Position numbers and translations under genes: made by a program. The notes below the pieces were generated by a model. It searched no databases. It worked only from the letters and a program-made list of their open reading frames with translations, and was not told the origin of the DNA. Positions 35,902-56,643 of a stretch of 64,000 nucleotides of DNA are shown piece by piece. This DNA comes from Streptosporangiales bacterium (GTDB lineage Bacteria > Actinomycetota > Actinomycetes > Streptosporangiales > WHST01), in contig WHTA01000001.1 of the NCBI GenBank assembly GCA_009379825.1, positions 62,001-126,000 on the forward strand, in the 5' to 3' direction. Within the stretch, counting starts at the first letter, position 1. Every line of letters begins with the position of its first letter.

Positions 35902-35937
35902 TTTCGCTGCTTTGCGTCAGTGTCTCGTTGGGATGAC

Positions 35938-36179
35938 GCGGGACACGCCCACCCACCGCCGGCGGTGTCTGCTTCCTCAACCTCGAAGACGAAACCGGCA
36001 TGGCCAACATCATCTGCCCACCCCCAACCTACCGCCGAACCAAGAAAACCCTCCTCGACAGCCCCGCTCTGTTCGTCACCGGCCTCCTGGAGAGCGCCAA
36101 CGGCGCTATCAACATCGTCGCCCAACGGATAGAGCCGTTCTCCCTCGCCGTCGCGACGAGGTCACGCAACTGGCGATAG
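35938..36179 (+). pseudogene. C-terminal (OB-fold) remnant of a second, divergent dnaE2
   Basis: In its own frame this encodes RPPTAGGVCFLNLEDETGMA, NIICPPPTYRRTKK, LFVTGLLESANGAINIVAQR and a terminal SRNWR before TAG 36177-36179. It aligns along its whole length with the DnaE2 tail encoded at about 56397-56643 (RPPTAGGVVFLSLEDETGLV ... ITHSRDFR) but is clearly diverged. The frame differs from the one running in from native dnaE2, so it is not translated from it. It is foreign DNA at the left edge of the insert, in the same orientation as the host gene. Confidence 0.85.
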
Positions 36180-36205
36180 CTGGCTCTCATACGCGACGTT
36201 CCCGA

Positions 36206-36581
36206 TCACCCGTCAGGTCTGGACCCACCTGACCAAGCGTCGCCTAGAACGCCTCTTGCGATGATCACTCTCTGGACCTCGCTGGTGCCTTCGTAGATGC
36301 GGAACAGCCGTGCGTCTCGGTAGAACCGCTCGACCGGGACGGATCGCATGTAGCCGAGCCCGCCGTGGATCTGGACAGCACGGTCGGCGACTCGGTCGAC
36401 CATCTCGGAGCAGAAGAGCTTCGTACACGACGGCGCGGTTCGTCGGTCGCTGCCTTCGTCGTACTCGCGGGCCGCCTGCAGGACCATCGCACGACCCGCA
36501 TAGAGCTCGGTCTGTGAGTCAGCCAGTTCGCACGAGTGTCCTGACGGCCTCGAGTACCGCGGCGAAGTCCGCGTCGTCCAT
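36206..36581 (-). pseudogene. Acyl-CoA dehydrogenase with large internal deletion
   Basis: ATG 36581 (preceded by GGGAG) encodes only MDDADFAAVLEAVRTLVR before the frame is lost near 36525. The rest, in another frame, is the C-terminal ~110 residues: ELADSQTELYAGRAMVLQAA, VQIHGGLGYMRSVPVERFYR and RLFRIYEGTSEVQRVI, the FAD/dimer helices and the catalytic-Glu motif IYEGT. About 250 residues are missing. Acyl-CoA dehydrogenases carry out the first oxidation of beta-oxidation. It would have been the last gene of the minus-strand run. Confidence 0.8.
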
Positions 36582-36607
36582 AGCGGCTCTCCCTCTTGGC
36601 TGTAACG

Positions 36608-38770
36608 TCAAGGAGTGGTTGGCACGTCGGTGAGCCTGGCCAGGCAGTCGACGGCGGCCAGCGCCTGCCCGGATCGATCGACGAGCAGCGGATTGACGTC
36701 GAGCTCGGCGACTTCTTCGGCGAGATCGGTCGCGAGCCAGGACACTCGTACGACTACATCGGCGATGGCGTCGAGGTCACAGGCAGGACGGCCGCGGACC
36801 GGACCGAACAACCGGCTGCCGCGTAACGAGAGCAGCATTCGCCGAGCGGTGTCGAGGTCGACCGGAGCGACCGCGGCCGCGCTGTCGGCCAGGACCTCGA
36901 CGAGCACGCCCCCGAACCCTACGACGACGACCGGGCCGAACCCGATGTCATGCTTGGTTCCAACGATCACTTCGAGGTCGCCGTCGACCATGCGCTGCAC
37001 CAGCAGCTCCGCGTCCGCGAGCTCAGCGGTCGACGCGCGGGTGAGCAGCGTCCGCGCCGCCTCTCGTACCTGGTCGGCATCGACCAGGTCGAGCAGCACT
37101 CCGCCGATGTCGCTCTTGTGCCCGACATGGTGGGAGAGCAGCTTGACCGTGACTGGTCCGCCGAGCTCATCCAAGGCGGACACGGCAGCCTCAGGGGTGG
37201 CTGCGCGGCGTGACCCCGCGCTGGGTATGCCGTACGCGGCGATCAGCCTTGTGGACGCGTACTCGTCGAGCTGGGTCTGCCCGGCGGTCCTGACCGCGTC
37301 GAGAACCGCACGGGCCGCCGTCGGGTCGACACCGGACGGACGGTGCGGATCGGGTACCGCCGGCCGGAGGCTGTAGTCGACGAGTGCGCCCAGAGCTGCG
37401 GCCGCCCGTCCCGGGTCGTTGTAGCAGGGAATGCCCTGCGCTCGCAACAGCCGCTGCGCATCGCCGCTGCCACCGGTCCACACGACCACGAACGGACGGT
37501 CGGTGGACCGGTGTGCACAACCGATCACGTCGACCAGCTGCTCGGCGTGCTTGTCGGCATTGCCAAGCAGCACAGCGACCAGATGGGAGTCCGGGTGTGC
37601 CAGGGCGACATCGAGCGCGCACCGCAGCAGGTCGGGATCGGCGAGCAGCGCCGCCGTCAAGTCGATCGGGTTGCTCGGGGACCCGTAGGGTGGGAGAACC
37701 GCGGCCATTCGGTCCTGCCAAGCCTGGTCCCAGGCGGTGATCTCGACGCCGTGTGCGCTGGCCGCGTCTGCCATGAGCACACCGGCGCCGCCGGAGAGCG
37801 ACAATGTGGTGAGTGAGCGGCCATGTGCACGGCGGCCGGTGGCGAACAGCTGGGCGGCATCGAGCAGGGCGTTCATGCCGTCGACCCGGACGATGCCGAA
37901 CTGGTGCGCTGCTCCTTCGAAGACCGCGTCCTCTCCGGCAAGGGAGGCGGTGTGTGACTGCGCGGCCCGGGCGCCGGCTTCCGACCGTCCTACCTTCACG
38001 GCGAGGATGGGCTTGTCGAGGCGGTGGGCACGGCGCGCCACCTCCAGCAGCCGCCGTCCGTCGCTGACGCCTTCCAGGTAGGCGAGCAGTACCCGCGTCT
38101 CGCCGGCGTCCAACAGTGCGTCCAGGACGTCGGCGACCGAGAGATCGACCTCGTTGCCGGTGTTGACGTAGTGCGAGATCCCGATCCCAGCGTGTAGCGC
38201 CTCGGTGAAGACGAAGGACCCGAAGGCACCACTTTGGCTGACGAAGGCTACAGGACCGTCCCGCAGCTCGATCGTCTCGTCCAGCGCTGAGGTGAAGGTC
38301 GGAACGGCTCGGTCTCTGACCCCGATCATCCCAAGGCAGTTCGGGCCGAGGACACGGACTCCGGTCTCCGCGATGGCGGCTTCGAGCTCCAGCTGCAGCT
38401 GCGCGCCCCGCTTACCCGATTCGCCGAAGCCGGACGCTCCCACGATGGCCGCGGAGATCCCGTTCTTTCCGCAGGCACGTACCGCAGTTGGCACCTGCTC
38501 GGCCGGCAGCATGATCATGGCGAGGTCGATAGTGCCGGGGACCTCGTCGAGGCTGCGATAGGCGGGCAGGCCCTGCACCTGCGGGCGAGCGGTGTTGATC
38601 GGGATGACGCGGCCGGTGAACCCGAACCGCTGCAAGTAGTCGACAGGTCGGCCGGAGAGCTTGACGGGGTTGTCGGAGGCACCGATCACCGTGATGGACC
38701 GTGGATAGAGCAGCTTCCACAGATCGGCGAGTTGGCCGGTGGATTTCGAGGCTGTGGCCGTGCTACCCAT
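36608..38770 (-). CDS. ADP-forming acyl-CoA synthetase (fused alpha/beta)
   Basis: 720 residues from ATG 38770. N-terminal CoA-binding domain: LYPRSITVIGASDNPVKLSG and LAMIMLPAEQVPTAVRACG. Middle ligase domain: GPVAFVSQSGAFGSFVFTEA and the phosphohistidine segment QSHTASLAGEDAVFEGA. C-terminal ATP-grasp: GPVTVKLLSHHVGHKSDIGG and VVVGFGGVLVEVL with ELDVNPLLV. It forms acyl-CoA from an acid, ATP and CoA, releasing ADP. It is downstream of the aldehyde dehydrogenase with a 22-base gap, so it likely activates the acid that enzyme makes. Confidence 0.9.
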   Translation of the reverse strand: MGSTATASKSTGQLADLWKLLYPRSITVIGASDNPVKLSGRPVDYLQRFGFTGRVIPINTARPQVQGLPAYRSLDEVPGTIDLAMIMLPAEQVPTAVRACGKNGISAAIVGASGFGESGKRGAQLQLELEAAIAETGVRVLGPNCLGMIGVRDRAVPTFTSALDETIELRDGPVAFVSQSGAFGSFVFTEALHAGIGISHYVNTGNEVDLSVADVLDALLDAGETRVLLAYLEGVSDGRRLLEVARRAHRLDKPILAVKVGRSEAGARAAQSHTASLAGEDAVFEGAAHQFGIVRVDGMNALLDAAQLFATGRRAHGRSLTTLSLSGGAGVLMADAASAHGVEITAWDQAWQDRMAAVLPPYGSPSNPIDLTAALLADPDLLRCALDVALAHPDSHLVAVLLGNADKHAEQLVDVIGCAHRSTDRPFVVVWTGGSGDAQRLLRAQGIPCYNDPGRAAAALGALVDYSLRPAVPDPHRPSGVDPTAARAVLDAVRTAGQTQLDEYASTRLIAAYGIPSAGSRRAATPEAAVSALDELGGPVTVKLLSHHVGHKSDIGGVLLDLVDADQVREAARTLLTRASTAELADAELLVQRMVDGDLEVIVGTKHDIGFGPVVVVGFGGVLVEVLADSAAAVAPVDLDTARRMLLSLRGSRLFGPVRGRPACDLDAIADVVVRVSWLATDLAEEVAELDVNPLLVDRSGQALAAVDCLARLTDVPTTP

Positions 38771-38792
38771 GGTCGATACTCTCCTCGCTGAG

Positions 38793-40160
38793 TCAACCAA
38801 TGACACGGACCAGCTTCTTGTTCGCGAACTCCTCGATGCCGTACCTGGCCAGCTCGCGTCCGACCCCGGAGGCTTTGACGCCACCGAACGGGAGGTCGGG
38901 TGCGCTCTTGCTGGTGCCGTTGATCCACACCATGCCGGCCTCGAGCCGCTCGGCCAGCGCACGGGCCTGGTCGATGTCGAGCGTGTAGACCGCAGCGGCC
39001 AGCCCGAACGGCGTGTCGTTCGCGAGGGCGACGGCGGCATCCGCCGAAGCCGCTCGGTGGACGACCGGCCCGAACAACTCCTCCCGATAGGCGCGCATGG
39101 CAGGGGTCACGTCGGTGAGCACGGTTGCCTCGTAGAACGAGCCCGCGCCGGCGATCCGGTGTCCGCCGGTGAGTACGGTCGCGCCCTTGGCGACCGCGTC
39201 GTCGACCTGCGCGGCGAGCTCGTCGACGGCCTCGCGCGACGACAACGGCCCGAACGTGGTGTCCGGGTCGACGGGATCGCCGGGAACCTGCGCACGCATC
39301 GCCGTCGCGAACCTGCCGACGAACGCGTCGAAGATGTCGTCCAACACGATGAAGCGCTTGGATGCGGTGCATGCCTGGCCAGCGTTCGTCAGCCGGTTGT
39401 TCACAGCCGCGGCGACGGTCGCGTCGAGGTCGTGGCCGTCGAGCACGATGAACGGGTCGGACCCGCCGAGCTCGAGCACGTACTTCTTCAGGTGACGTTC
39501 GGCGACCTCACCAACCGCCGATCCCGCTCGTTCCGAGCCGGTGAGCGACACGCCCTGGACACGGGAATCTGCGATCATCTGCGCAATCTGCGTACTGTCG
39601 GCGAACACGTTGACATACACGCCGGCGGGCAGCCCGGCGTCGGTCATCAGCGCCTCGATGGCCAGGGCGGACTGTGGGCAGTTGCGGGCGTGCTTCAACA
39701 CGACCGTGTTGCCGAGCAGGATGTTCGGAGCGGCGAACCTGGCGACCTGATAGTGCGGGTAGTTCCACGGCATGATGCCGACGAGTGGTCCGATCGGCTC
39801 GGTTCGCACCAACGCCTCGCCCCGGCCGGCGATCTCCAGCGGCTCGTCGGCCAGGAACCGTTCGCCGTGGTCGGCGTAGTACTCGTAGATGTCGGCCGTC
39901 AGCACGATCTCGCCTTTGGCCTGGGTGACGGGTTTGCCCATCTCCAGCGTCGCCGTCAACGCGAGCTCTTCAGAGCGTTCACGATACAGGGCCGCGACCC
40001 GGCGCAACACCTCGGCGCGCTGCCGCAAGGAGGTCACTCGCCACATCCGGTAGGCAGCAGAGGACTCCTCGAGCACGTCCTCGATCTCCGCGGCCGTCGC
40101 GACGGGAAACACCTTGAGCACGGTCCCGGTCCCCGGATGACGCGTGACATAGTCGCCCAT
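38793..40160 (-). CDS. NAD(P)-dependent aldehyde dehydrogenase
   Basis: 455 residues from ATG 40160, placed by AGGGAGGG. Motifs: PLVGIMPWNYPHYQVARFAA (cofactor and Asn site), VSLTGSERAGSAVGEVAERH, the general base Glu in YVLELGGSDPF, and the nucleophile in NAGQACTASKRFIVLDD. It resembles short succinate-semialdehyde dehydrogenase-type enzymes. In the insert it would oxidise the aldehyde produced by the zinc alcohol dehydrogenase and pass the acid to the ADP-forming synthetase. The gene lies behind the activator gene on the same strand; a candidate activator site is at 40241-40255. Confidence 0.92.
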   Translation of the reverse strand: MGDYVTRHPGTGTVLKVFPVATAAEIEDVLEESSAAYRMWRVTSLRQRAEVLRRVAALYRERSEELALTATLEMGKPVTQAKGEIVLTADIYEYYADHGERFLADEPLEIAGRGEALVRTEPIGPLVGIMPWNYPHYQVARFAAPNILLGNTVVLKHARNCPQSALAIEALMTDAGLPAGVYVNVFADSTQIAQMIADSRVQGVSLTGSERAGSAVGEVAERHLKKYVLELGGSDPFIVLDGHDLDATVAAAVNNRLTNAGQACTASKRFIVLDDIFDAFVGRFATAMRAQVPGDPVDPDTTFGPLSSREAVDELAAQVDDAVAKGATVLTGGHRIAGAGSFYEATVLTDVTPAMRAYREELFGPVVHRAASADAAVALANDTPFGLAAAVYTLDIDQARALAERLEAGMVWINGTSKSAPDLPFGGVKASGVGRELARYGIEEFANKKLVRVIG

Positions 40161-40240
40161 GGTCCCTCCCTTCGTCGCGTGCATGCCGACCAGACTCATA
40201 GTCTCGGAGACCGGCAGAGGTTGCGGTTGTGCCGATACGG

Positions 40241-40268: not shown

Positions 40269-42107
40269 TCATGCGTCGATGCGCAGTGCCACCATCTTGC
40301 GGTAGAGCGTTGTCCTGCCGATACCGAGTGCCTGGGCGGCTTCGGTTCGGTTTCCGCCGGATCGGTGCAGCGCCGAGATGATGGCCTGCCGTTCCGCGTC
40401 TTCCATCAGGGTCAGCTGACGACGGGACCGGGCGTGCTGCAGCCGTGTCGGGAGATCCGTGAGCCGCACCACCCCTCCCGGCATGCGGCAAGCAAGATCC
40501 TCGACGGTCCGGGAGAGCTCGGCGACATTCCCTGGCCACGACCACGCGATCAGCGCCTGCAGCGCCTCCGAGGAGAACGTCGTCTCCCGACGCCCGTCCG
40601 GCAGACCGGTCAGGATGTGGCCCACCAACTGCGGGATCTGTTGCTGTATCTCACGCAACGTCGGCAACCGCACAATGGTCGCCAGCTGGCCCACTAAGGA
40701 CTGGACGTGCTCTTCCGCCGCATCCAGATCGACCGTCATGACCAGCGCAGCACAGCGATCACCCGCAGTGGCGGTAGAACCTGCGGAATCCTGGCATTGG
40801 ACGAGCGCCTTGACCCTGTTAACCTCACGCGGCTCAAGATCCTGCACATGCCGCAGGATCACCGGCCTGTCCTCGGCGAGCGCCTCGCTCGCAGCAGAGA
40901 ACCAGCCGGACTCGTCGTCCCGACGATGACAGGAGACGTCGATGACAAGCGGCGACACGTGAGTGCGGAAGGTACGGTAAACCGCGGACGCAGCATGGAA
41001 CTTGCCCGTCCCTGGTCCGCCGTCGATCGCGACGCAGTCCCGACTGCAGATGGCGTCAATGAGTTGCGTCTGGACGTCCGGCGTCACACTCAGCGACGCC
41101 GCCGGCAGCCGGATCGCCGATCCGGTCAAGACCGTGCCGGCCCGGTGCGGCGGGTCGTGGTCGGCCGGGAGCAGGCGGACGCAGTATGCGGCATCGGATT
41201 CGTGGCTCCCGTCGACCCGCTCCACCACAGCCTCGCGCCATGCGGTGGGCAACGGAATCCCGATCCGTTGTGGTCCCCGCTCCAGCGGGGCGTCGGACAG
41301 GTGTGTCCACAACAAGGCGTGTGAGTCGCTGCTCACGTAGGTCAGCCCTGCGGTGTTGGCGAACATCACCCGTTCGTTGACGACGAGGACGGGGTCGTGC
41401 TCTCCCTGGTTGGCGACCAGGTATGCCTGGATGAGGGCACGCTCCTTGGCGCCGCGCATCGCGGTCAGGTTGCTCTCGATCTGACGACCGACATCGATCG
41501 CAACGGCGTACGTGAGCGGTGTCGCATCGACGGTGTAGCAGGCCAGGGAGAACGTTCCTACCAGTCGCCCTGTGAAGGGTTCGAAGACTGGAGTGCCGGC
41601 GCAGGTGATGGGTTCGAGCATGTCGTTGTAGTGCTCGCTGCCCCGCACGACGAGCGGACGGCGTTCCGCGATGACGGTGCCCAAGCCGTTCGTCCCGATC
41701 GAGGTCTCCGAGAAGTCGAACCCCTCCGCCGCGAAGGCGTTATCGAGCACGCTGCGCTGGCTGGGTTCACTCACTCGACGCATGATGATCTTGCCGGTGT
41801 GGTCACTGAGGAACATCGCGACCCGGACCTCGCCGATGTGGTCGCTGAGCCGGTCGAAGACCGTGGCCGCGGCTCTCCCCAGTTCCAGCTCGTGTCCGTC
41901 GATCTCCTGGTAGGGGATCTCGTCAGGTCTCGTCGGAACAGTGTCACCGAGGGAACGCCGCCAGCTGCGCTCGATGACGTCTCTCACGCCCACCGCTGAC
42001 GGTCGCACGGCGAGGAGGCCATTGCTCAGCAGGTCGTCCTTCGCCTGCCGGATGCGTTGCTGGTCGGCTGCGGGTCCGGTGGGCCACGGTTCGGCGCTGG
42101 TGTTCAT
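40269..42107 (-). CDS. AcoR/MimR-like Fis-type transcriptional activator
   Basis: 612 residues. The N-terminal sensor (about 60-230) is GAF-like with DFSETSIGTNGLGTVIAERR, the signature of AcoR-type regulators. A degenerate AAA domain follows: its Walker A reads GGPGTGKFHAAS, with Phe where Ser/Thr is needed, and no GAFTGA loop for sigma-54 contact is seen. The C-terminal Fis HTH is intact (RQAIISALHRSGGNRTEAAQ, ALGIGRTTLYRKMVAL). Related regulators control alcohol, ketone and propane oxidation genes in actinomycetes. Its ATG overlaps the alcohol dehydrogenase stop (ATGA), so the two are coupled. Confidence 0.85.
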   Translation of the reverse strand: MNTSAEPWPTGPAADQQRIRQAKDDLLSNGLLAVRPSAVGVRDVIERSWRRSLGDTVPTRPDEIPYQEIDGHELELGRAAATVFDRLSDHIGEVRVAMFLSDHTGKIIMRRVSEPSQRSVLDNAFAAEGFDFSETSIGTNGLGTVIAERRPLVVRGSEHYNDMLEPITCAGTPVFEPFTGRLVGTFSLACYTVDATPLTYAVAIDVGRQIESNLTAMRGAKERALIQAYLVANQGEHDPVLVVNERVMFANTAGLTYVSSDSHALLWTHLSDAPLERGPQRIGIPLPTAWREAVVERVDGSHESDAAYCVRLLPADHDPPHRAGTVLTGSAIRLPAASLSVTPDVQTQLIDAICSRDCVAIDGGPGTGKFHAASAVYRTFRTHVSPLVIDVSCHRRDDESGWFSAASEALAEDRPVILRHVQDLEPREVNRVKALVQCQDSAGSTATAGDRCAALVMTVDLDAAEEHVQSLVGQLATIVRLPTLREIQQQIPQLVGHILTGLPDGRRETTFSSEALQALIAWSWPGNVAELSRTVEDLACRMPGGVVRLTDLPTRLQHARSRRQLTLMEDAERQAIISALHRSGGNRTEAAQALGIGRTTLYRKMVALRIDA

Positions 42108-43162
42108 GACGAGAGCACGATCCGGCCGGGGACCCCTCCGTTGGCGACATCGGTCAAGGAACCGCTGACGCCGGCGAGGTCCAGCGTGCCAGGCACGACC
42201 GGTGAGCGTGGTAGCTCACTGGTCCGTGCGATCGTCACGAGTTGCTGCAGCTCGTCGAGTGTGCCGACGTAGCTGCCCTGGATGGTGATCATCTTCAACG
42301 CCATGAGGGCGGTCGGCACGGTGAGTTCGCCGCCGAACAGCCCGATCTGCACGAGCTTGCCGGCCTTGCCGAGCGCGTTGAAGGCCAGTTCGGCGGTCTG
42401 GGTGTTGTTCACGACGTCGATCACGGCACGGACCGGCCCGCCACATGCCTCGGACAGATCCTGCTGCGCCCGGTCTCCGTCCACCACCAGTGTTGTCGTC
42501 GCGCCTGCAGCCGACGCGAGCCGGAGGTTCGCCGCATTGATGTCGACGGCGCAGACGTTGCGGTGCCCACGCGCGACAAGAACACCGACCACGGTCAGCC
42601 CGACTCCTCCCGCGCCGATCACGACGACGGGCATGTCGGCCGGCAACGGCAGCACCTTGTTCACGGCGCTGAACGCGGTGACACCTGAGCAGGCCAGGGT
42701 GGCCGCCCAGGCAGGCTCCAGTCCGGAGATGTCGATGAGGAACTTCTCGTCGGGGACGGTCACGAGCTCGGCGTAGCCGCCGTGTCTGTTCACCCCGATC
42801 GTTCGGCCGGAGCCGCAGTGATTGTCCAAGCCGGCAGCGCAGAGGTGACACGAGCCGCAGCCGATCCACGGGTAGACCAGCCGCTCCTCCCCGACAGCGA
42901 CGTCGCGGACGTCGGGACCGATGGCTTCGACCCTGCCCACGATCTCGTGACCCATGACCAGCGGGTAGGCAATGCCACGGTCGGTGAGCCGGAGCCTGCC
43001 GCGCCGCCCGAGATCGTAGTACCCCTGCCGGAGATGGGTGTCGGTGTGGCAGACACCTACGTGCAGCACACGCAGGGTGACCTCGCCGGCCCGTGGTGGA
43101 CGGTCGGGCAGTTCGACCTGCCGAACCGTGGTGTCGTCTTCGGTTACGGCGTACGCGTACAC
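42104..43162 (-). CDS. Zinc-dependent alcohol dehydrogenase
   Basis: 352 residues from GTG 43162, chosen because GAGGAG is just upstream; longer starts would read into the ribosome site. Catalytic zinc ligands appear in HVGVCHTDTHLRQG and YPLVMGHEIVGRVEAIG. Structural zinc Cys residues are in CGSCHLCAAGLDNHC. The NAD site is VVVIGAGGVGLTVVGVL followed by VCAVDINAANLRLA (Asp, so NAD-preferring). It would oxidise the alcohol released by ester hydrolysis after Baeyer-Villiger oxidation. It is coupled to the activator gene downstream. Confidence 0.92.
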   Translation of the reverse strand: MYAYAVTEDDTTVRQVELPDRPPRAGEVTLRVLHVGVCHTDTHLRQGYYDLGRRGRLRLTDRGIAYPLVMGHEIVGRVEAIGPDVRDVAVGEERLVYPWIGCGSCHLCAAGLDNHCGSGRTIGVNRHGGYAELVTVPDEKFLIDISGLEPAWAATLACSGVTAFSAVNKVLPLPADMPVVVIGAGGVGLTVVGVLVARGHRNVCAVDINAANLRLASAAGATTTLVVDGDRAQQDLSEACGGPVRAVIDVVNNTQTAELAFNALGKAGKLVQIGLFGGELTVPTALMALKMITIQGSYVGTLDELQQLVTIARTSELPRSPVVPGTLDLAGVSGSLTDVANGGVPGRIVLSS

Positions 43163-43204
43163 AGCCACTCCTCGACTCTGAACAGAGGCTCTGAGCACAT
43201 GATC

Positions 43205-43585
43205 TCATCGATCCCGGCGACGATCATGTTCCAGAACGGAACAGGGGCGGGGCGGTCTCTGCTCCCTCGACGCCGCTGCGCCGCCAGGTGATCGCGAGGC
43301 TGCCGTCTGCGCGGCCGTCGGGAACGGCCCCAACGGCGCGAGGAACGCCCCGGCCACCAACGCGGCGGGACCCCATGCCGACGTGGTGCCGCTGGCACCC
43401 ACCATGCCCCAGCCGCTCTGGATCGAAGAGAACGAGGCGATCGCCATCACGAAGAATCCCAGTGACTGGCCGGCGACCAGGAACTCCTTCGACGACGTCA
43501 TCTTGGAGTTCGCCCAGAGTCCGATGCCGATCATTACCACCAAGTACGCGATGGCGACCCCGAGTATGACGGTCTGCGCATCCAT
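43205..43585 (-). pseudogene. N-terminal remnant of a sodium:solute symporter
   Basis: From ATG 43585 the first ~85 residues match SSS-family transporters: ILGVAIAYLVVMIGIGLWAN, SSKEFLVAGQSLGFFVMAIA and SFSSIQSGWGMVGASGTTSA. At about 43330 the homology ends and the frame becomes low-complexity. A full transporter has about 500 residues, so only the first two or three helices survive. It sits between the first monooxygenase and the alcohol dehydrogenase and probably once imported the substrate. Confidence 0.8.
43227..43243. promoter_or_regulatory. Perfect 6-5-6 dyad upstream of the alcohol dehydrogenase
   Basis: TGTTCC (43227-43232), AGAAC, GGAACA (43238-43243) is a perfect inverted repeat 65-81 bases upstream of the alcohol dehydrogenase start. 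It shares the GGAACA half-site with the region before the aldehyde dehydrogenase. It is the best candidate binding site for the coupled AcoR/MimR-like activator. Confidence 0.5.
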
Positions 43586-43667: not shown

Positions 43668-45290
43668 CTACGAGACCTGTGCCGATGGAGCCATCTCGAA
43701 GCCCGCGTAGCCGTTGCTCGTCACCTCGGCAAGCTGCTGGCGATAGGCCTGCAGGCCAGCCATGTAGAACATGACGGTGTTGGGTTTGCCGGGGATGTTG
43801 GCGCCGAAGATCCAGGAGTCCGCTTTGGGGAACAGCGTCATGTTCGCGATCTCGCGGCAGGTGGTGGTCCATCCCTCCTCTGCCTGCGCGGTCGCCTCGA
43901 TCGATGTCACACCCGACCGCTCCGCGTTGTTGATCAGCTCGGAGATCCACTCACCCTGGGCCTCGATGCTGGGCGGCAGGTTGGTGAAGGGCCCGTTGGG
44001 TCCGAGGATCATGAACAGGTTCGGGAAGCCCGTCGTCGAAATGCCGAGATAGCTGGTCGGTCCGTCCTTCCAGTGCTCCTTGACGGACCTTCCCCCGCGT
44101 CCGCGGATGTCGATCCGGGTGTAGTTGCCGTCGACCGCGTCGAAGCCGGTCGCGAAGATGAGCACGTCGAGCTGGTGTTCCTGGCCGTCCTCGGTCCGCA
44201 CACCCTTCGGCGTGATCTCGGCGATCGGGTTGGCCTTGACATCCACCAGCGAGACGTTGTCGCGGTTGAACGTCTCGTAGTAGCCCGGGTCGCACAGTGG
44301 TCGCTTGGCGTAGAGGTCCGTCGGTGTCAGCTTGCGCGCGGTTTCCGGGTCCTCGACGATCTCCGCGATCTTGGCTCGGATGAACGACGCCGCGGCCTCG
44401 TTCGCCTCCGGGTCCGTGGCGATGTCGCTGAACGTACCGAACATGAAATGGAAACCGCCACCGCGTTCCCATGCCTTCTCAAAGACGCGTTGCCGTTCCT
44501 CCTCCGAAACGCTCATCGCCGCGACGGCGCTCTCCTTGAAGCCGAAGGCGACGACCGAGTTGCGCACGCCGTCCCAGACCTGGTCATAGTTCGCTTTGAC
44601 CGACGCAACATAGTCTTCGGTCACCGGACCGTTGGCGATCGGGACGCTGTACTGTGCCGAACGCTGGAAGACGGTGAGGTGCCCGACCTCCGGCGCGAGC
44701 GCGGTGATCACCTGACATCCGGTGGAACCCGTGCCGAGCACGCCGACTCGCTTGCCGGCAAGGTCGTGTTCCTCGGGCCAGGCGCCGGTGTGGTAGACCT
44801 CCCCCTCGAACGTGTCCCGCCCGGCGATGTCCGGGATGTTCGTCGCAGAGAGCAGCCCCAGGGCAGACACCAGGTACCGCGCGGTGAACGTCTCGCCGGT
44901 GTCGGTGCGGACCTCCCACGCATTCCTCGACTCGTCGAAGACGGCGGACGTGATGCCGGTGTTCAGCTGGATGTCACGGCCGAGGTCGAAACGCTCGACG
45001 ACGTGTTCCAGGTAGGCCAGGACCTGTGATTGCGTGAGGTAACGGGTGTCCCAGGTCCACTGCTGGAGCAGATCCTTGTCGAAGGAGTAGCAGTAGACGA
45101 AACCTTCGGTGTCCGACAATGCTCCTGGGTATCGGTTCCAGTGCCAGGTGCCCCCTACGCCGCTGGCCCTGTCGAACGCCCGGACGGTGAGGCCGAGCTC
45201 ATTGCGTAGCTTGTGGAGCATGTAGATGCCCCCGAATCCCGCGCCCACGACGATCGCGTCGACGTCCGTGCTCGTCTTGCTGGCAGCCAT
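43668..45290 (-). CDS. Baeyer-Villiger monooxygenase, cyclohexanone-monooxygenase type
   Basis: 540 residues. FAD motif AIVVGAGFGGIYMLHKL near residue 12; the BVMO fingerprint FxGxxxHxxxW is exact in FEGEVYHTGAWPEEH; the NADPH motif is VGVLGTGSTGCQV; and the ATG motif FATGFDAVDGNY is present. Size and motifs fit type I BVMOs of the cyclic/linear ketone group. It inserts oxygen next to a ketone, using NADPH and O2, to make an ester or lactone. It is the second gene of the minus-strand run after a hydrolase able to open the product. Confidence 0.95.
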   Translation of the reverse strand: MAASKTSTDVDAIVVGAGFGGIYMLHKLRNELGLTVRAFDRASGVGGTWHWNRYPGALSDTEGFVYCYSFDKDLLQQWTWDTRYLTQSQVLAYLEHVVERFDLGRDIQLNTGITSAVFDESRNAWEVRTDTGETFTARYLVSALGLLSATNIPDIAGRDTFEGEVYHTGAWPEEHDLAGKRVGVLGTGSTGCQVITALAPEVGHLTVFQRSAQYSVPIANGPVTEDYVASVKANYDQVWDGVRNSVVAFGFKESAVAAMSVSEEERQRVFEKAWERGGGFHFMFGTFSDIATDPEANEAAASFIRAKIAEIVEDPETARKLTPTDLYAKRPLCDPGYYETFNRDNVSLVDVKANPIAEITPKGVRTEDGQEHQLDVLIFATGFDAVDGNYTRIDIRGRGGRSVKEHWKDGPTSYLGISTTGFPNLFMILGPNGPFTNLPPSIEAQGEWISELINNAERSGVTSIEATAQAEEGWTTTCREIANMTLFPKADSWIFGANIPGKPNTVMFYMAGLQAYRQQLAEVTSNGYAGFEMAPSAQVS

Positions 45291-46543: not shown

Positions 46544-46559
46544 CAGGAATGAGGTTACC

Positions 46560-48491: not shown

Positions 48492-50057
48492 ATGTTCACC
48501 AGCAGCGTGCTGCGCAGCGTGGCGCAGCGGGCGAGGGCAGGCTACCGCGACCGTCCCGCGGTGTCGTTGGAAGACGGGCCCACGTGGACGTACGGCGAGC
48601 TCGTCGCCAACGTCAACCGGTACGCCAACGGCCTGCTCGACCTCGGCGTGACCGCGGGCGACCGTGTCGGCTTGCTGATGCGCAACTCGCTCGAGTACTG
48701 GGCCGCCTACCTCGCCACCACGAGGATCGGGGCGATCGCCGTACGGCTGAACTGGCGACTGGCGCCGGCCGAGCTCGACTACGCACTGCGCGACTCAGGC
48801 GCGACGGTACTGTGCCTCGACGACGCCTTCACCGGCGAGCTGCGCCAGATGCTCGGCGTGCTGCCCGACCTGACGCCGGTGGCCTTCACAGAAGGCGCCG
48901 ACCCGTTCGCGACGCAGCCGGCTACCGAACCACCGGTTGATGACCCGGCGGCGACCGACCCGTGCATGATCATGTACACGTCGGGCACCACGGGACGCCC
49001 CAAGGGCGCGTTGTGGTCGCACGACACGACGCTGTGGCAATGCGCCATCCAGGTCATGCAATGGAAGTACGACAAGAATCTCGTCTGCCTGTCCACCACG
49101 CCGATGTACCACGTGAGCGCGGTCGAGGACTGGGCGCTGCCGGCGTTGATGCTCGGCGGCCACGCGGTGATGATGCGCTCGACCGGCCTGCGCCCTGAAC
49201 GGATCGCCGCGATGGTGCGACGACACGGTGTCACGGACACTTTTCTCGTCCCTTCCGTCATCTACGACCTGCTCACGTCGGACGCGCCCGGCGCGCTCGA
49301 CCTGCCCAGCCTGCGCCGGGTCGTGACGGGTGGGTCGCCGATGGCGGCGTGGGCGGTGACCAAGATGCGGCAGGCGCTCCCCGACGTCTCGCTGGAGCAA
49401 GCGTACGGACTCACCGAGGGTGGCCCGATCTCCACGGTCATGGACCCCGCCGACCTCGACACCCATCCCGCCAGCGTCGGCACACCGATGCCGCTGGTCG
49501 AAGTACGCATCGCGCGCCTCGACGACCTCGCGGCGGACGCCGCAGCAGACCAGGAGGGCGAGATCTGGGTCCGCGGCCCAGCGACGTGCGGCGTCTACTA
49601 CAACAAGCCCGAGGCAACGGCGGCGACGTTCGTCGACGGCTGGTGCAGAACAGGCGACCTCGGCCGGCTCACCGCCGACGGTCACCTCTACGTCGTCGGC
49701 CGTGTCAAGGACATGATCATCAGCGGCGGCGAGAACATCTACCCCGCCCAGGTCGAGGCGGTGCTCCTCGATCACCCGGCGGTGAAGGACGCAGCCGTCA
49801 TCGGCATCCCGGACGCCAGGTGGGGTGAACGCCCATGCGCGGTCATCGTCACCAGCCCCGGCATGACGGTCACCGCAGACGAGCTGGTGGCGCGCTGCCG
49901 CGGCCAGCTCGCTGGCTACGAATGCCCGCGACACGTGGTGCTCGTCGACGAGCTCCCCCGCAACGCCTCGGGCAAGGTACTCAAGCGCGTTCTGCGCGAC
50001 CAGTACGCATCGCTGGGGACGCGAGGTCGTGGGATGGATCCAAATACAGCCTCGTGA
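48492..50057 (+). CDS. AMP-forming acyl-CoA synthetase/ligase
   Basis: 521 residues. ATP/AMP motifs are clear: MYTSGTTGRPKGALWSHDT, YGLTEGGPISTV, GWCRTGDLGRL, GRVKDMIISGGENIYPAQVE and the C-terminal Lys in LPRNASGKVLKR. It activates a carboxylic acid to its CoA thioester through an acyl-adenylate. Being 3 bases after the HAPMO-like BVMO, it would activate the acid set free from that enzyme's ester. Its last 77 bases overlap a decayed maoC-like frame on the other strand. Confidence 0.93.
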   Translation: MFTSSVLRSVAQRARAGYRDRPAVSLEDGPTWTYGELVANVNRYANGLLDLGVTAGDRVGLLMRNSLEYWAAYLATTRIGAIAVRLNWRLAPAELDYALRDSGATVLCLDDAFTGELRQMLGVLPDLTPVAFTEGADPFATQPATEPPVDDPAATDPCMIMYTSGTTGRPKGALWSHDTTLWQCAIQVMQWKYDKNLVCLSTTPMYHVSAVEDWALPALMLGGHAVMMRSTGLRPERIAAMVRRHGVTDTFLVPSVIYDLLTSDAPGALDLPSLRRVVTGGSPMAAWAVTKMRQALPDVSLEQAYGLTEGGPISTVMDPADLDTHPASVGTPMPLVEVRIARLDDLAADAAADQEGEIWVRGPATCGVYYNKPEATAATFVDGWCRTGDLGRLTADGHLYVVGRVKDMIISGGENIYPAQVEAVLLDHPAVKDAAVIGIPDARWGERPCAVIVTSPGMTVTADELVARCRGQLAGYECPRHVVLVDELPRNASGKVLKRVLRDQYASLGTRGRGMDPNTAS

Positions 50058-50472
50058 GGTGGTCGGCGATGCACACCGGCGTCGCCGAACGCTCCGGCAG
50101 CATCGTATAGCGCACCTTCACCTGCACGCCGCCGTCGATCTCGACGGCGTCCAGCAGCCGCGCCGTCGCTCTTACCCGAGTATGGGCGGGTAGCGGCGCT
50201 GGGAAGCGCACCCGGTCCAGGCCGTCGTTCACCACCATGCGTACACCACCGAGGGGCAGCACCTGCGGCAGGAACTTCGCGATCAGCGCTAACAACAAGA
50301 AGCCCGGCACCGTCGTGGTGCCGGGCTAGGGGTCGTCGTCGGTCGCGGCAGTGAACTGGGCAATGCGGTCCTCGCTGACCGACACCCAAGATGCGGTGCC
50401 CATCTCGCCGCCGACGACCGCCCGTAGCTGGTCGACGTCGGTAAGCGCGTCAGGTCGCCGCGCCGACCGCAC
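49981..50472 (-). pseudogene. MaoC-like hydratase gene, deleted and stopped
   Basis: One frame from GTG 50472 encodes DVDQLRAVVGGEMGTASWVS, VSEDRIAQFTAATDDD, then TAG at 50326-50328. After that come LIAKFLPQVLPLGGVRMVVN, DGLDRVRFPAPLPAHTRVRA and a tail, the second half of a MaoC/hot-dog hydratase. The ~25 residues that normally hold the catalytic Asp-His segment are absent, and a perfect hairpin lies exactly there. The 3' end runs into the acyl-CoA synthetase gene. Hydratases of this kind act in beta-oxidation. Confidence 0.7.
50301..50327 (-). terminator. Perfect 11-bp hairpin with T-rich tail (minus strand)
   Basis: AGCCCGGCACC (50301-50311) and GGTGCCGGGCT (50317-50327) are exact complements around GTCGT. 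Read on the minus strand the stem is followed by TCTTGTTGTT, as in an intrinsic terminator. It would end transcription of the SCP2-like and hydrolase genes. It also sits at the lesion in the maoC-like pseudogene. Confidence 0.75.
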
Positions 50473-51283
50473 GAGAGTTCACACGCTGGACGAAGTCGAC
50501 GATGACGTCAGCGATACGGGCTGGGTCCTCGAACATCGGGTAGTGGCCGATACCGTCGAGGACCAGCTTCTCACCGTCAGGCAGCAGCTTCACCGTCTCG
50601 TCGACGAGCTCCTCGGGGAGCCAGAAGTCGTCGGCACCCTTGACCACGAGCACCGGGCAGCGCGTGCCCGGCAGGACGTCACGGATGTCGTGGTTGGCCC
50701 AGCCGCACAGGTCGCCCACTGCACTGACCTGGGCATTGCGGTGCATCCACCGGAGCTCCTCGACCTTCTCCGCCGGGCACGCGCGGTTCAGCGATGCGCC
50801 GGACACGCGTTCCATCAGGTCCTGCCAGCCCGGCGTCCAGGACGGGTACATGTACTCGCTCGGGTCCGGGAAGGTCGGCGTGCGTGCCGCGCCCTCCATC
50901 GGGATCGCCGCCAGGTAGTCCTCGCCGTGGTGCGCGGCGATGTCGAGGGTGATGTCGCCGCCGATCGACGACCCCGTGATCACGGGACGCCCCCCCGAGC
51001 ACACCAGCTGGGTGAACCGGTGCACGAACTCCGCGTGCGGGTGGATCCTCGTCGTGACCTCCCAGCCCGCCGGGTAGGTGCGTCCACGGCCGGGCAGGTC
51101 CAGCGCGATCGCACGGTAGCCACGGTCGGCGAGCTCGGCCAGCAGGTACCGGTATTCCAGGCTGCTCGCGCCGGCCGTATGCACGCAGACGATGGCGGGC
51201 CCGTCACCGAGCTCATCGTAGAACGTCAGCGTGCCGTCGACGTCGATGTAGTGACCGGTGATGTCGCAGATCCCGTAGCTCAT
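50450..51283 (-). CDS. Alpha/beta hydrolase (meta-cleavage/enol-lactonase-like fold)
   Basis: 277 residues from ATG 51283, which shares its A with the upstream stop (TGATG). Motifs: GDGPAIVCVHTAGASSLEYR (oxyanion region), nucleophile in VITGSSIGGDITLDIAAHH, acid in VVKGADDFWLPEE, and His in LDGIGHYPMFEDP, so the Ser-Asp-His triad is complete. It is a second hydrolase in the insert, coupled to the SCP2-like gene. It may open esters or lactones, or cleave a ring product; the substrate cannot be told. Confidence 0.88.
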   Translation of the reverse strand: MSYGICDITGHYIDVDGTLTFYDELGDGPAIVCVHTAGASSLEYRYLLAELADRGYRAIALDLPGRGRTYPAGWEVTTRIHPHAEFVHRFTQLVCSGGRPVITGSSIGGDITLDIAAHHGEDYLAAIPMEGAARTPTFPDPSEYMYPSWTPGWQDLMERVSGASLNRACPAEKVEELRWMHRNAQVSAVGDLCGWANHDIRDVLPGTRCPVLVVKGADDFWLPEELVDETVKLLPDGEKLVLDGIGHYPMFEDPARIADVIVDFVQRVNSRAVGAAT

Positions 51284-51717
51284 CACGAACTCCTCGTTGC
51301 CGCTGTGCGCGCGTACGTCTCAGCGAGCTGGTACACCGCCTCGGTGAGCCGGTTCGCCTCCATCACGTTCCCCTCGACCCTCAGGTCGGACGTCATCACG
51401 CCGAGTGTCGCCAGCTCGGGGTCATCGGCGAAGTACCGTTGTCCCGGGGTCACCAGGTCGGCGAACAGGCGGCGTCCCGCCACCAGCTCCGCCCACGCCT
51501 CGTCCGGCCCGGATACCTTGAACGTGTACCCGAGCGGCGGCATGAACGGCAGGTGGTCGATCACCTTGCCGCGGTAGACCTTCAGCCAGCACTGCCCGCC
51601 CGACGACTCCAGCAGCACACTGCCGTCGAACCAGCGCGTCTCGCGTTCGAACGCCTCGTTCTCGTTGAGCGAGGCAACCAGCGCCTCCGCTCCTGCTGTC
51701 GTGGTGAATGTCGCCAC
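51283..51717 (-). CDS. SCP2 sterol-binding-like protein
   Basis: 144 residues from GTG 51717, preceded by AAGGGAGGGAAAG; a longer start (51750) would overlap the ribosome site. QCWLKVYRGKVIDHLPFMPP and LGYTFKVSGPDEAWAELVAG, then TSDLRVEGNVMEANRLTEAV form the SCP2-like alpha/beta fold with a hydrophobic pocket. Such proteins bind lipids or acyl-CoA, or serve as small accessory proteins in degradation operons. It is coupled to the hydrolase and faces the tetR gene across the operator at 51766-51784. Confidence 0.7.
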   Translation of the reverse strand: MATFTTTAGAEALVASLNENEAFERETRWFDGSVLLESSGGQCWLKVYRGKVIDHLPFMPPLGYTFKVSGPDEAWAELVAGRRLFADLVTPGQRYFADDPELATLGVMTSDLRVEGNVMEANRLTEAVYQLAETYARTAATRSS

Positions 51718-51765
51718 GAGCTTTCCCTCCCTTGGGTGCTGTGGGACCAAGACTCGACCGCGAGC

Positions 51766-51784: not shown

Positions 51785-51834
51785 ATAGCAACGACTCGCC
51801 GGAATGCGACACCTTGCCGTCTAGGATCGCGAGC

Positions 51835-52494
51835 ATGGCCAAGAAGGGTGACCAGGGCGCCACCAAATCCGGGTACACGCGCGAACGAATCCTGGACGCC
51901 ACTGCGTCCGTGCTGTGCCAGAAGGGATACGCGGGCACGCGCCTGTCCGACGTCGCGGACGTCGCCGAGCTGCAGGCCCCCGCGCTGTACTACTACTTCG
52001 ACTCCCGCGACGAGCTGATCGAAGAGGTCGTCAGGCTCGGCCAGCAACGCGCCCAGCAACACGTCCGCGAGGCACTCGACGCCCTCCCCGCCGACACCCC
52101 TCCCCTCGACCGCCTCTGTGCCGCCGTCGAAGCGCACCTGCGTGTGGTGCTCGAACTGTCGGACTACACGATGGCGGCGATCCGCAACCTCGGCCAGCTC
52201 CCCGAGGGGATGCGGCGTCGGATGCTCGCCGAGCAGCGGCAGTACGGAAAGCTGTGGGAGGAGCTCGTCGCCGACGTCCACGCCGCTGGTATTGCCAATC
52301 CCGACGTCGACCTGCTCTCCGCGCGGATGCTCATCGTCGGCGCGCTGAACTGGGCACCGGAGTGGTGGAACCCTCGGCGCACCTCCGTAGACGACGTCGT
52401 CCACACGGCACGCACGCTGGTACGCCACGGGCTACGTGCCGACAAGCGATCGGCATCGAAGACCCGGACCCGCGGGGACAGGAGGACCACGTGA
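51835..52494 (+). CDS. TetR-family repressor of the catabolic insert
   Basis: 219 residues from ATG 51835. HTH region: TRERILDATASVLCQKGYAG, TRLSDVADVAELQAPALYYY and FDSRDELIEEVV. The C-terminal domain has WAPEWWNPRRTSVDDVVHTA, a pattern shared with KstR2/FadR-type TetR repressors that bind acyl-CoA ligands. The operator core shared with the BVMO2 promoter makes it the probable repressor of the monooxygenase-synthetase operon and of the SCP2-hydrolase pair. The inducer is likely a pathway acyl-CoA; that is inference. Confidence 0.88.
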   Translation: MAKKGDQGATKSGYTRERILDATASVLCQKGYAGTRLSDVADVAELQAPALYYYFDSRDELIEEVVRLGQQRAQQHVREALDALPADTPPLDRLCAAVEAHLRVVLELSDYTMAAIRNLGQLPEGMRRRMLAEQRQYGKLWEELVADVHAAGIANPDVDLLSARMLIVGALNWAPEWWNPRRTSVDDVVHTARTLVRHGLRADKRSASKTRTRGDRRTT

Positions 52495-52989
52495 GGCGAG
52501 GTCCACACCCGTTCCCGCGTGAGTCTGTCCGCACCGAAGGGGCGGGCAGGTCCAGATCGGCATGAGACCCAGGCCAGCCCACACCTCAGGATCTCCGCCG
52601 GCGCTGAGCGTTGCCGACGGCAATGCGGGTCCAGTGTCAGCGTTGGCCTGGGGTGCCGGGGAGGTCCACGCCAGCTTGGACGCCGGCAAATGCCCTATCG
52701 ACATGCCGCTGCCAGGCGTCGACGCTGGGTCGTCCTCGAGCATCCACTCGTCGGTTCCGATGCGGCTGGCGGCCGCACAGACCGCGACGGCAAGTACCGG
52801 CATTCGATCGGCGTCGGCGTCCAGGCCTGCCCGGCGGGCGAGGCACCGGGCCAACGCTGTCTCCCTGCCTCCGATGCGCCTGAGGTTCTCTCCGCGGAAG
52901 GTCGTGTCGGCGTTGACAATGCGCCGGACGCGGCGCACCTTCGTGGCCATCTCCTCATGTCGCTGCCGACTCTCCGAAGCGGCAGCCAC
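52495..52989. other. Degenerate stretch after tetR, no gene recognised
   Basis: About 500 bases with long frames on both strands but no motif I can place. Since the following sequence is the C-terminal half of an amidohydrolase gene, this could be its decayed N-terminal half. I could not find the HxH metal motif in any plus-strand frame. Confidence 0.35.
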
Positions 52990-53529
52990 GTCATCGAGCG
53001 CGCGCACGCGATCGGTACCGTCGGGATCTCCAACGCAGTGCAGGTGGGAGTGCACAGCGTCGAACATGGCAAACGGTGTCACGCGTGAGCTGGCGACCGG
53101 ATCGCCGAACTGGGCACCCTTCTTGTACCGACTCTCACCGTGCTGCCTGAGGCCGCCGCAACCGGCGGTGATCGGGGACCACGCTCATCGGAAGGCAGCG
53201 CGCTGGCAGGAGGAAACGCGGGTGAACCTGCCTGCGGCGATCGAGGCCGGTGTGCGCGTCGCGATGGGGACGGACGCCGGCCTCGCAGCCAGCACGGGCA
53301 GAACCTTCGCGAGCTCGCGCACCCCGTCGAGTTCGGCATGTCGCCGATGGCGACCATCGTGGCGGGCATACGCACTACCAGTGAGGTCTGTGGCTCGAGC
53401 GAGGTCCCAGGGACCCGATGGCCGATATCGGGCCTGCCCACCGAACCGGCGAATATCCCAGTGGTCGTCCAGGACGGCCGTATTGTCAAGAACACCGCTG
53501 ACGACTCGAAGGGTGGCGGACATGAGTAG
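52990..53529 (+). pseudogene. Imidazolonepropionase-like amidohydrolase, frameshifted
   Basis: Pieces in three frames follow the order of COG1228-type amidohydrolases. RAHAIGTVGISNAVQVGVHS with VEHG (metal His region) lies at about 53000-53070. HRKAARWQEETRVNLPAAIE, AGVRVAMGTDAGLA (the metal Asp) lies at 53190-53290. NLRELAHPVEFGMSPMATIV and VVVQDGRIVKNT lie in a third frame to TGA 53529. At least two frameshifts and an internal deletion are needed. The stop overlaps the next start. Confidence 0.6.
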
Positions 53530-54690
53530 GCGCGTGATCGTGGTGGGGGCGGGAATTGTCGGAGCCTCGGTGGCGGCCGAGCTGGGCGCCCGCATCCGCG
53601 GCGAGGTCACGGTCATCGAACAAGCCCCGGAAGGCGAGCTGCGTGGCTCGACCGGTCACGCCCCGGGATTCGTCGGCATCCTCAACGAAGCGTCCGTCCT
53701 CACCGAGCTGGCTCGAGACAGCGTCCGCGTCTACCGGGAGCTGCCCCGCGACGGCGCCGCCGGGTTCGACCTGGTGGGCGGGCTGGAAATCGCGCAGAGC
53801 CCTGCCGCCGCACAGAATCTCACCCAACGGGCGGACGCGGCGGCCGCAGCCGGCCTGCCGGCCCGCTGCTGGAGCCACGCGAGGCCGCACAGCTGGCGCC
53901 CCGCATGGTCGATCCCGCGTCGGTGACCGCTGCTTTGCATTTTCCCGCCGACGGGACAGCGCAGGCCGACGTCCTCACGTCCGAGCTCTGTGCTCGGGCC
54001 GCCTCGGTGGGCGTGCGGTTCCTCGCCGACACTCCGCTCACCGCGATCGACATCCGCGGCGACCGGATCGTCTCGGTCCGTGCAGGTGGCCAGACCCTGC
54101 CGGCCGACGACGTTGTGCTCGCCTGCGGGATCTGGGGTCCTGCTGTGGCCGAGCTCGCCGATCGCGCCAGTGGCCCACCCGTACGTCTACCGCACCCGTC
54201 ACACTGCTCCGTTTCCTCCCTCGCCCTTCGTCCGCTGGCCCGAGTATCACGTCTACGCGCGGGATCACGGCGACCGCGACGGCCTCGGAACGTATGACCA
54301 CACCCCTGGCCGATCACAGCTGTCGCTGATCACGCCGAACGGGACTGGCCCGGTGCCCTGTTCGACGAAGCCGTCGACAAGGCGATGCGACTGCTCCCCG
54401 ACGACCAACGCTGGCAGCCGGCTGAGCGCCTCAACGGCGTCTTCTCGATGACTCCGGATAACCTCCCGCTGCTCGGCACGCATGCCACACTGTCAGGGCT
54501 CTGGCTGGCCGAGGCGATCTGGGTCACGCACGCGGCGGGAGCCGCCGCAGTGCTCGTCGCGTTGATGGACGGACAGGACACCAACGAACAGATCAACCTC
54601 CTGGACCCCAACCGATTCGACGGCGAACCAGGAGACGACCTTCAACGCCGCGCCTTGGCCCGCTACCGCGACATCTATAGCAGCGCCTGA
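53522..54690 (+). pseudogene. DAO-family FAD oxidoreductase, several frameshifts
   Basis: ATG 53522 starts VIVVGAGIVGASVAAELGAR (FAD), then STGHAPGFVGILNEASVLTE and VGGLEIAQSP. The frame is lost near 53868. VDPASVTAALHFPADGTAQA and VVLACGIWGPAVAELADRAS continue in a second frame. YRTRHTAPFPPSPFVRWPEY is in a third, and SMTPDNLPLLGTHATLSGLW with WVTHAAGAAAV follows to TGA 54690. The order matches sarcosine/dimethylglycine dehydrogenase-type proteins. Three shifts in one gene argue for real decay. Confidence 0.75.
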
Positions 54691-55117
54691 CAGCACGACA
54701 CACGATCACCGGTCGCCGGCGGGTCGCCGCGGGTAGCAGCGAACCAGTCGGAATGCCGCACGATGGGGCCGCAGCTCGGCAGACCGGTAACCGGGGAGGT
54801 GTGAGCGATCACGACATTCCGTGCGACACGAGGTCGGGCGGACCTCCCATTGCGCCGGCGCCCTTTGCTTCCTGCAAGTCCGCGGAGCCACGTCGGCCTG
54901 CGCAGTCATGGACCGCTGTCATCAAGGAGCGGGCACATCATCCGCTGCCTCCGTCGACGGGTTCGAACACGCCTTGTAACTCTCGTCACGCACGTACGCA
55001 GGAACGCGACAGCGAAACAAATGTCATACCGGACGGCGGCCTAGGTCGGACGCTCGGTAGTGAGCAATGACGAACACGACATGGCCTGGGTAGGACACAG
55101 TGACTGCGGCCGAAATG
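54691..55117. other. Right end of the insert, no gene recognised
   Basis: 427 bases without a supportable gene, attachment-site repeat or transposase fragment. The last bases before the dnaE2 junction (GCGGCCGAAAT) resemble, as reverse complement, the first bases of the left end (TTTCGCTGC), a weak sign of terminal repeats. Confidence 0.4.
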
Positions 55118-56643
55118 GGGCTCGGCATGCTCAGCGCGTTGCACGACGCCTTCGACCTGCTGGCCGTCTACCACCAGGTCGCGTTCGAGCTGGAGAACGT
55201 GCCCGCCGAGGACCCGAAGGTGTACGAGATGCTGTGCGACGCCGACACGATCGGCGTGTTCCAGGTGGAGTCGAGGGCGCAGATGTCGGCGCTGCCGCGG
55301 CTGCGGCCGAAGGAGTTCTACGACCTGGTGGTGCAGGTCTCGCTCATCCGGCCTGGACCGATCCAGGGCGGTTCCGTACACCCGTACCTGCGCCGCAGGC
55401 ACGGCCGGGAGGAGAGCACCGCGCCGCATCCGCTGATGGAGCGGGCGTTGAAGCGTACCTACGGGGTGCCGCTGTTCCAGGAGCAGATGATGCAGATCGC
55501 CGTCGACTGTGCCGGGTTCACGGCCGCGGAGGCCGACCGGCTCAGGCAGGCGATGGGCTCCAAGCGGTCCAGGAGCGGATCGAGGCGCTGCGTGCGCGGC
55601 TGCTCGCCGGCATGCAGGCGAACGACGTCGACGAGCAGACGGCCGAGGACATCTACCACAAGCTGCACGGCTTCGCCGGGTTCGGTTTCCCCGAGTCGCA
55701 CGCGATGAGCTTCGCGCACCTGGTGTACGTCAGCGCCTACCTGAAGCGCTACTACCCCGCGGTGTTCACCGCTGCGTTGCTGCGCAACCAGCCGATGGGG
55801 TTCTACGGGCCGCACACCCTGGTCGGTGACGCGCGCAGGCACGGCGTCGTGGTCCGCGGTGTGGACGTCAACGCAAGCGCGGCCGAGGTGACGCTGGAGA
55901 AGGAGTACCACCCGCCGGAGTGCGCGCACCCGCACCAGCCGGTCGAGTCGCAGCCGGTGATCAGGATGGGGTTGGCCAGCGTCCGCAACCTGGGCAAGGA
56001 GCAGGCGAAGGTGGTCGCCGCCGGCCGGCCGTACGCGGACATGGAGGACCTGGCCAGGCGCACGCAGCTGTCCGTACCTGCGCTCGAGGCGCTCGCCGTA
56101 GCGGGTGCGTTCGGCTGTTTCGGGCTCACCCGCAGGGAGGCGCTGTGGGCGGCCGGCGGGCTTGCGGGTGTCGGGCCCGGGCAGCTCGCCGGCAGCACTC
56201 CCGGCCTGCCCGCGCCCGAGCTGCCTGCCATGACCCCGATCGAGGAGACCTTCGCCGACCTGTGGGCGACGGGCGCTTCGGCGACCAGCCACCCGATCCA
56301 GCACCTGCGCGCCGAACTGGCGGCACGGCGGGTCGTGCCGGCGGAGGCGTTGCCGCGGTTGGCCGACCGCGCACAGGTGCGCGTCGCCGGCGTCGTCACC
56401 CACCGGCAGCGACCGCCGACCGCGGGCGGCGTGGTGTTCCTGAGCCTGGAGGACGAGACCGGCCTGGTCAACGTGGTCTGCCCGCCCGGCACCTGGCAAC
56501 GGCACCGCAAGGTCGCCCTGGACGCGGCGGCCCTGATCGTCCACGGCCGCCTGGAACGCGGCGAAGGCACGACGAACCTGATAGCCCACCGCGTCGAGCG
56601 CCTACCCGTAGCCACCATCACCCACAGCCGCGACTTCCGCTGA
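55118..56643 (+). pseudogene. dnaE2: dnaE2 3' portion, with an additional frameshift
   Basis: The frame resumes with GLGMLSALHDAFDLLAVYHQ and runs through DADTIGVFQVESRAQMSALP, VSLIRPGPIQGGSVHPYLRR and QAMGSKRS, the fingers domain. Near 55570 one base is missing (TCCAGGAG for TCC-CAG-GAG). The rest (ERIEALRARLLAGMQANDVD, HGFAGFGFPESHAMSFAHLV, HhH region, OB-fold RPPTAGGVVFLSLEDETGLV, end HSRDFR) is in the next frame to TGA 56643. Joined to 34139-35901 it would give a DnaE2 of about 1095 residues. It lacks its own start signal. Confidence 0.92.

Follow-up and report, generated by a model that had tools for sequence, protein, structure and literature searches.

How did a 19.2-kb block of catabolic genes come to lie inside dnaE2, a gene for an error-prone DNA polymerase, and what did its arrival leave of the SOS mutagenesis system to which that gene belongs? 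The locus lies on contig WHTA01000001.1 of a Streptosporangiales bacterium, in a stretch of 64,000 nucleotides (the window) whose positions give all coordinates below. The dnaE2 gene starts at 34139 on the plus strand, is broken off after a GGGCT at 35897-35901, and picks up again at a second GGGCT at 55118-55122. The insert measures 19,221 bp with one GGGCT counted in, and no host base was lost at the insertion point.

34139..35901 (+): host dnaE2 5' half, with PHP domain and palm containing the three catalytic Asp, ending in GGGCT (NF004225, PHP, DNA_pol3_alpha)
35897..35901 (+): left GGGCT copy, a 5-bp duplication or microhomology
55118..55122 (+): right GGGCT copy
55118..56643 (+): host dnaE2 3' half, with a 1-bp deletion near 55570 (alignment to congener G001; NF004225)

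The flanks, when joined (1-35901 followed by 55123 onward), are colinear over about 3.2 kb with the dnaE2 of two congeners, G001 (77%) and G002 (78%), and with that of five other genomes of the same order (71-75%). The alignment to G001 is gap-free across the junction, and dnaE2 in these seven relatives is an uninterrupted open frame of about 1,090-1,110 amino acids (two are cut at the end of the locus). They provide the intact gene with an empty site by which the original prediction had proposed to check its claim, and the island itself has no match in G001 or G002 at E<=1e-40. Composition, another of the proposed checks, also sets the island apart: at 0.670, its GC content lies below that of all 19 comparison stretches taken from this genome (0.687-0.723), and in tetranucleotide usage it is the stretch farthest from the genome mean, at a distance of 0.152 (0.074-0.132 in the 19 others). 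On these sequence comparisons, the insertion of a foreign 19-kb catabolic segment into dnaE2 is confirmed as real, and so is the prediction of a precise split at a shared GGGCT. The accompanying claim that joining the halves restores the reading frame holds at the junction and fails further on, where the 1-bp deletion near 55570, a frame break separate from the insertion, keeps the halves from being one open frame even if joined.

Immediately inside the right junction, a short frame (55100-55117) that opens with GTG and has a putative ribosome-binding site is cut after six codons and happens to continue in frame into the dnaE2 3' half.

The mutasome cassette and the age of its disruption

The interrupted gene is part of an imuA'-imuB-dnaE2 SOS mutasome cassette, all three components of which are encoded together, with dnaE2 in two parts.

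31406..32257 (+): ImuA' (NCBIfam NF058630, DnaE2-dependent mutagenesis accessory factor ImuA', 150.5 bits against a cut-off of 65)
31566..31581 (+): putative LexA-type SOS box TCGAACACGTGTTCGA, a perfect palindrome ahead of imuA' (exact match to TCGAACNNNNGTTCGA)
32427..33977 (+): ImuB, intact, 516 amino acids (Pfam IMS PF00817; placed between imuA' and dnaE2)

The sequence TCGAACNNNNGTTCGA has a single exact match in the window, at 31566-31581, which would serve as the SOS box; the true start of imuA' probably lies downstream of it, inside the listed open reading frame. The NCBIfam matches of ImuB are DNA polymerase IV-like and below cut-off. Along the 1047 positions of the error-prone DNA polymerase profile NF004225, the 5' half of dnaE2 covers 3-546 and the 3' half 697-1047. 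In E. coli Pol III alpha, D555 is the third catalytic aspartate; by alignment to 2hnh, the last residue of the 5' half corresponds to G558, three residues past it, in agreement with the predicted break at the third catalytic-Asp motif.

Through the insertion and the frameshift, the cassette has no intact error-prone polymerase. The assembly contains no second, intact dnaE2; beyond this locus, its substantial DnaE-type matches amount to one dnaE1-like gene with 33% identity. Because imuA', imuB, and the LexA box are kept and only this dnaE1-like gene is found elsewhere, the cassette appears to have lost its polymerase alone, and DnaE2 function would be gone while ImuA' and ImuB remain. Near full-length DNA matches to dnaE2 occur in only eight of 61 genomes of the order. 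With a gene this patchy, and with broken copies in some further actinobacteria, the cost of losing it may be small; by the original prediction, mutagenesis may have been traded for a carbon source. The partial dnaE2 forms seen in other actinobacterial genomes (L164 in G496, L165 in G605, L166 and L173 in G619) comprise one that lacks the middle and two of which just the 3' end was found.

Lineage-specific changes in the host halves, counted against G001, G002, and G003, are about as numerous as in the congeners' genes. In the 5' half they are still concentrated in third positions, with no in-frame stop, and the 3' half has an apparent slight first-position excess. With conservation of the halves thus close to that of the congeners' genes, the disruption is recent relative to species divergence. 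The edges of the insert are badly eroded, by truncated or frameshifted genes, and the catabolic core is intact; the edge genes were probably damaged before they arrived in this host.

Two ketone-catabolic modules

The original prediction described the cargo as a coherent ketone-to-acyl-CoA gene set, a description that stands and can be sharpened to two modules, the first of cyclohexanone type. Substrates are assigned here from enzyme families and are accordingly provisional. Module 1 runs on the minus strand in the order esterase, Baeyer-Villiger monooxygenase (BVMO) 1, alcohol dehydrogenase, AcoR-like regulator, aldehyde dehydrogenase, and ADP-forming acyl-CoA synthetase.

36608..38935 as searched (-): ADP-forming acyl-CoA synthetase (Pfam ATP-grasp_5, Succ_CoA_lig, CoA_binding_2)
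38793..40199 (-): aldehyde dehydrogenase (Pfam PF00171, E=1.8e-132)
40269..42107 (-): AcoR-like regulator with GAF, AAA lid, and Fis helix-turn-helix (Pfam)
42104..43198 (-): zinc alcohol dehydrogenase (Pfam ADH_N, ADH_zinc_N)
43668..45290 (-): BVMO1, cyclohexanone monooxygenase type, intact (5m0z match)
45336..46451 (-): esterase/lactonase, hormone-sensitive-lipase family (Pfam Abhydrolase_3, E=3.8e-45; NF058651 below cut-off)

The closest solved structure to BVMO1 is the cyclohexanone monooxygenase of Thermocrispum municipale (5m0z, 874.9 bits), and, by family and synteny, a lactone hydrolase and alcohol and aldehyde dehydrogenases stand alongside it, as in chn-like clusters. The module would convert a cyclic ketone via lactone, hydroxy acid, and dicarboxylate to a CoA ester. 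No SDR-type cyclohexanol dehydrogenase is found among the identified island proteins, and one could be encoded elsewhere. The best NCBIfam match of the ADP-forming synthetase is 4-hydroxybutyrate--CoA ligase, below cut-off; about 75 residues precede its first domain, which places the true start further inside. In Dietzia, the esterase, BVMO1, alcohol dehydrogenase, and aldehyde dehydrogenase genes lie together with a regulator of the same type, and in Geodermatophilus the same genes are rearranged. In its BVMO1 match and this recurring gene set, the module resembles horizontally acquired actinobacterial chn-type clusters, but here it is fused to a second BVMO module, lies inside dnaE2, and has no recognised SDR.

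Module 2 comprises BVMO2, an AMP-forming acyl-CoA synthetase, a MaoC-like protein, an alpha/beta hydrolase, a conserved protein labelled SCP, and a TetR regulator.

46521..48488 (+): BVMO2, intact, with an N-terminal extension (Pfam FMO-like; PDB BVMO matches from residue 149)
48492..50057 (+): AMP-forming acyl-CoA synthetase (Pfam AMP-binding, E=3.8e-84)
49981..50310 (-): MaoC-like hydratase (weak Pfam PF01575 match, below cut-off; synteny with genome G230)
50450..51286 (-): alpha/beta hydrolase (Pfam Abhydrolase_6, E=2.4e-18)
51283..51750 (-): conserved protein labelled SCP (no Pfam match; 63% identical partner adjoining the hydrolase in G230)
51814..52494 (+): TetR-family regulator (Pfam TetR_N, TetR_C_24)

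Genome G230 has a comparable cluster in the order BVMO2, TetR, acyl-CoA synthetase, MaoC, SCP, hydrolase, with identities of 67-68% for the hydrolase and 61% for BVMO2 and of only 31% for the AMP-forming synthetase. Both modules are thus also found separately in other genomes. A partial paralogue of BVMO2 lies elsewhere in the same genome (G000:C16:13001-13994, 69% DNA identity).

The route into dnaE2

Besides the two modules, the island carries gene remnants. One of these, beside the host gene's 5' half, is a dnaE2 3' end of foreign origin.

35937..36179 (+): foreign dnaE2 3'-end remnant, OB-fold end, PPTAGGVCFLNLEDETG...RSRNWR followed by a stop (Pfam PF01336)
36227..36585 (-): acyl-CoA dehydrogenase pseudogene, C-terminal domain (Pfam PF00441, positions 56-150)
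43205..43585 (-): truncated remnant resembling a membrane transporter (by eye the N-terminus of a sodium:solute symporter; no Pfam match)
52500..53510 (+): frameshifted remnant, amidohydrolase-like by eye (translation; no Pfam match)
53520..54690 (+): DAO-type FAD-dependent oxidoreductase pseudogene (consecutive segments of Pfam PF01266 spread over three frames)

The dnaE2 remnant shares 64% amino acid identity with the DnaE2 end of congener G002, its closest match, and 52% with the host's own; on these figures, an origin from the host gene was rejected. In the numbering of the gene, the remnant starts roughly 400 codons past the break and is not colinear with it, and the 40-odd bp between junction and remnant have no significant homology to dnaE2. 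Integration of a plasmid by a single crossover in dnaE2 was likewise rejected, since the two junctions coincide to the nucleotide in the host gene and the dnaE2 end brought in by the insert lacks colinearity. By target size alone, the odds that an insert bearing a dnaE2 end would hit dnaE2 are about 5e-4, which suggests, and does not prove, that homology had a part in guiding the DNA to this gene.

Among the other remnants, the acyl-CoA dehydrogenase pseudogene has, by eye in translation, a possible gene start in another frame and an internal deletion. Just downstream of dnaE2, at 57439-60884, follow genes for a small protein, for a sodium:solute symporter (57798-59288), and for an amidohydrolase (59292-60884). 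The last two are of the same kinds as two island remnants that were assigned by eye.

In line with the original prediction, which recognised no integrase, the island proteins identified by Pfam include no integrase, serine recombinase, or transposase; tyrosine integrases occur elsewhere only, the nearest on the contig about 50 kb from the island. Local alignment of the two island ends for terminal inverted repeats scored no better than shuffles, and no tRNA or Rfam feature that might be an attachment site was found. No phage matches the island and no plasmid is a close relative (coverage by any listed plasmid is only about 1%); genomes of the taxonomic order, plasmids, and phages hold no match to the whole island, only to single genes. 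The 5-bp GGGCT repeat fits a target duplication, an attachment (att) core, or microhomology alike. The suggestion that dnaE2 is a dedicated attachment site found no backing: neither a recombinase nor a terminal repeat nor a further insertion was found, and the foreign 3' end within the left edge is the sole hint of a link to dnaE2. The genome encodes Ku, so end joining would be available.

The reading we favour, and consider probable, is that horizontally acquired DNA of 19.2 kb entered by illegitimate capture in one event. The incoming DNA would have carried the two modules and the foreign dnaE2 3' end, and a single insertion would have cut an intact SOS-type imuA'-imuB-dnaE2 cassette just past the third catalytic aspartate. 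The join may have been made by illegitimate recombination, through microhomology or Ku-type end joining, rather than by a site-specific element, with the foreign dnaE2 end possibly aiding it. Several points weigh against this. Chance 5-bp homology at the junction has a probability below 1% under a simple model, and several transposases also leave 5-bp duplications. Homology-facilitated illegitimate recombination, which the event resembles in its short microhomology junction and in the homology of the incoming DNA to the locus, leaves microhomologies of 3-10 bp, usually together with one homologous junction and the deletion of host DNA (PMC3240628); here there is neither of the latter two, and both junctions sit at the same host nucleotide. 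A donor locus with dnaE2 beside these genes was not found; no island gene, acyl-CoA dehydrogenase or other, adjoins dnaE2 in the stretches read of dnaE2-bearing relatives. The insertion is, moreover, known from a draft assembly.

In the main rival, which we regard as possible but rather unlikely, the segment is an integrative element or transposon that was moved by a recombinase acting in trans or has lost its own, GGGCT being its target-site duplication or att core. The exact 5-bp direct repeat and the absence of any lost host base are what such an element would leave, and the eroded edges could conceal a lost recombinase. Yet no terminal inverted repeat rises above shuffled sequence, no identified gene belongs to a recombinase family, no conjugation or phage genes are seen, and the barely decayed host halves leave little time after insertion for an integrase to vanish. 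A separate and doubtful reading makes dnaE2 genes of this family a recurrent landing site and carrier locus for catabolic DNA, the segment having earlier lain beside or inside another bacterium's dnaE2, taken its 3' end, and been delivered to the new host's dnaE2 by recombination directed by dnaE2. Misassembly or contamination that placed unrelated DNA in dnaE2 is quite improbable: the draft has 169 contigs and a contamination estimate of 3.33%, and the island differs in composition, but an artefact would require two independent misjoins that converge on one host nucleotide and share one 5-bp overlap, much shorter than those normal in assembly, and the assembly holds no second, intact dnaE2. 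Least credible is a programmed interruption that leaves under some condition and restores dnaE2; the junction is precise and in frame at the join, but the element has no recombinase and the frameshift elsewhere in the 3' half would leave no working gene after excision.

Known parallels and significance

The locus has partial parallels. Some integrative elements bring along a substitute 3' end for the gene that they target, and the island resembles them in holding a foreign 3' end of the interrupted gene beside its 5' half; unlike in such elements, the carried end starts about 400 codons past the break, the gene is not rebuilt, and there is no integrase. An insertion sequence inactivates the imu operon of Pseudomonas aeruginosa CLJ (PMC7643977), likewise a case of foreign or mobile DNA inactivating an imu (dnaE2/imuC) cassette, but there the agent is an insertion sequence in a proteobacterium, whereas the present case involves an actinobacterium and a transposase-free catabolic segment of 19 kb. 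The locus is an unusual example of an ordinary, already known kind of gene acquisition. It represents a natural, recent, and clean knockout of the mutasome polymerase, in which the SOS box, ImuA', and ImuB are kept and a catabolic pathway is gained. It thereby offers a test of the roles of orphan ImuA' and ImuB and of the dispensability of damage-induced mutagenesis in such actinobacteria, and the foreign dnaE2 end within the insert makes dnaE2-directed capture testable.

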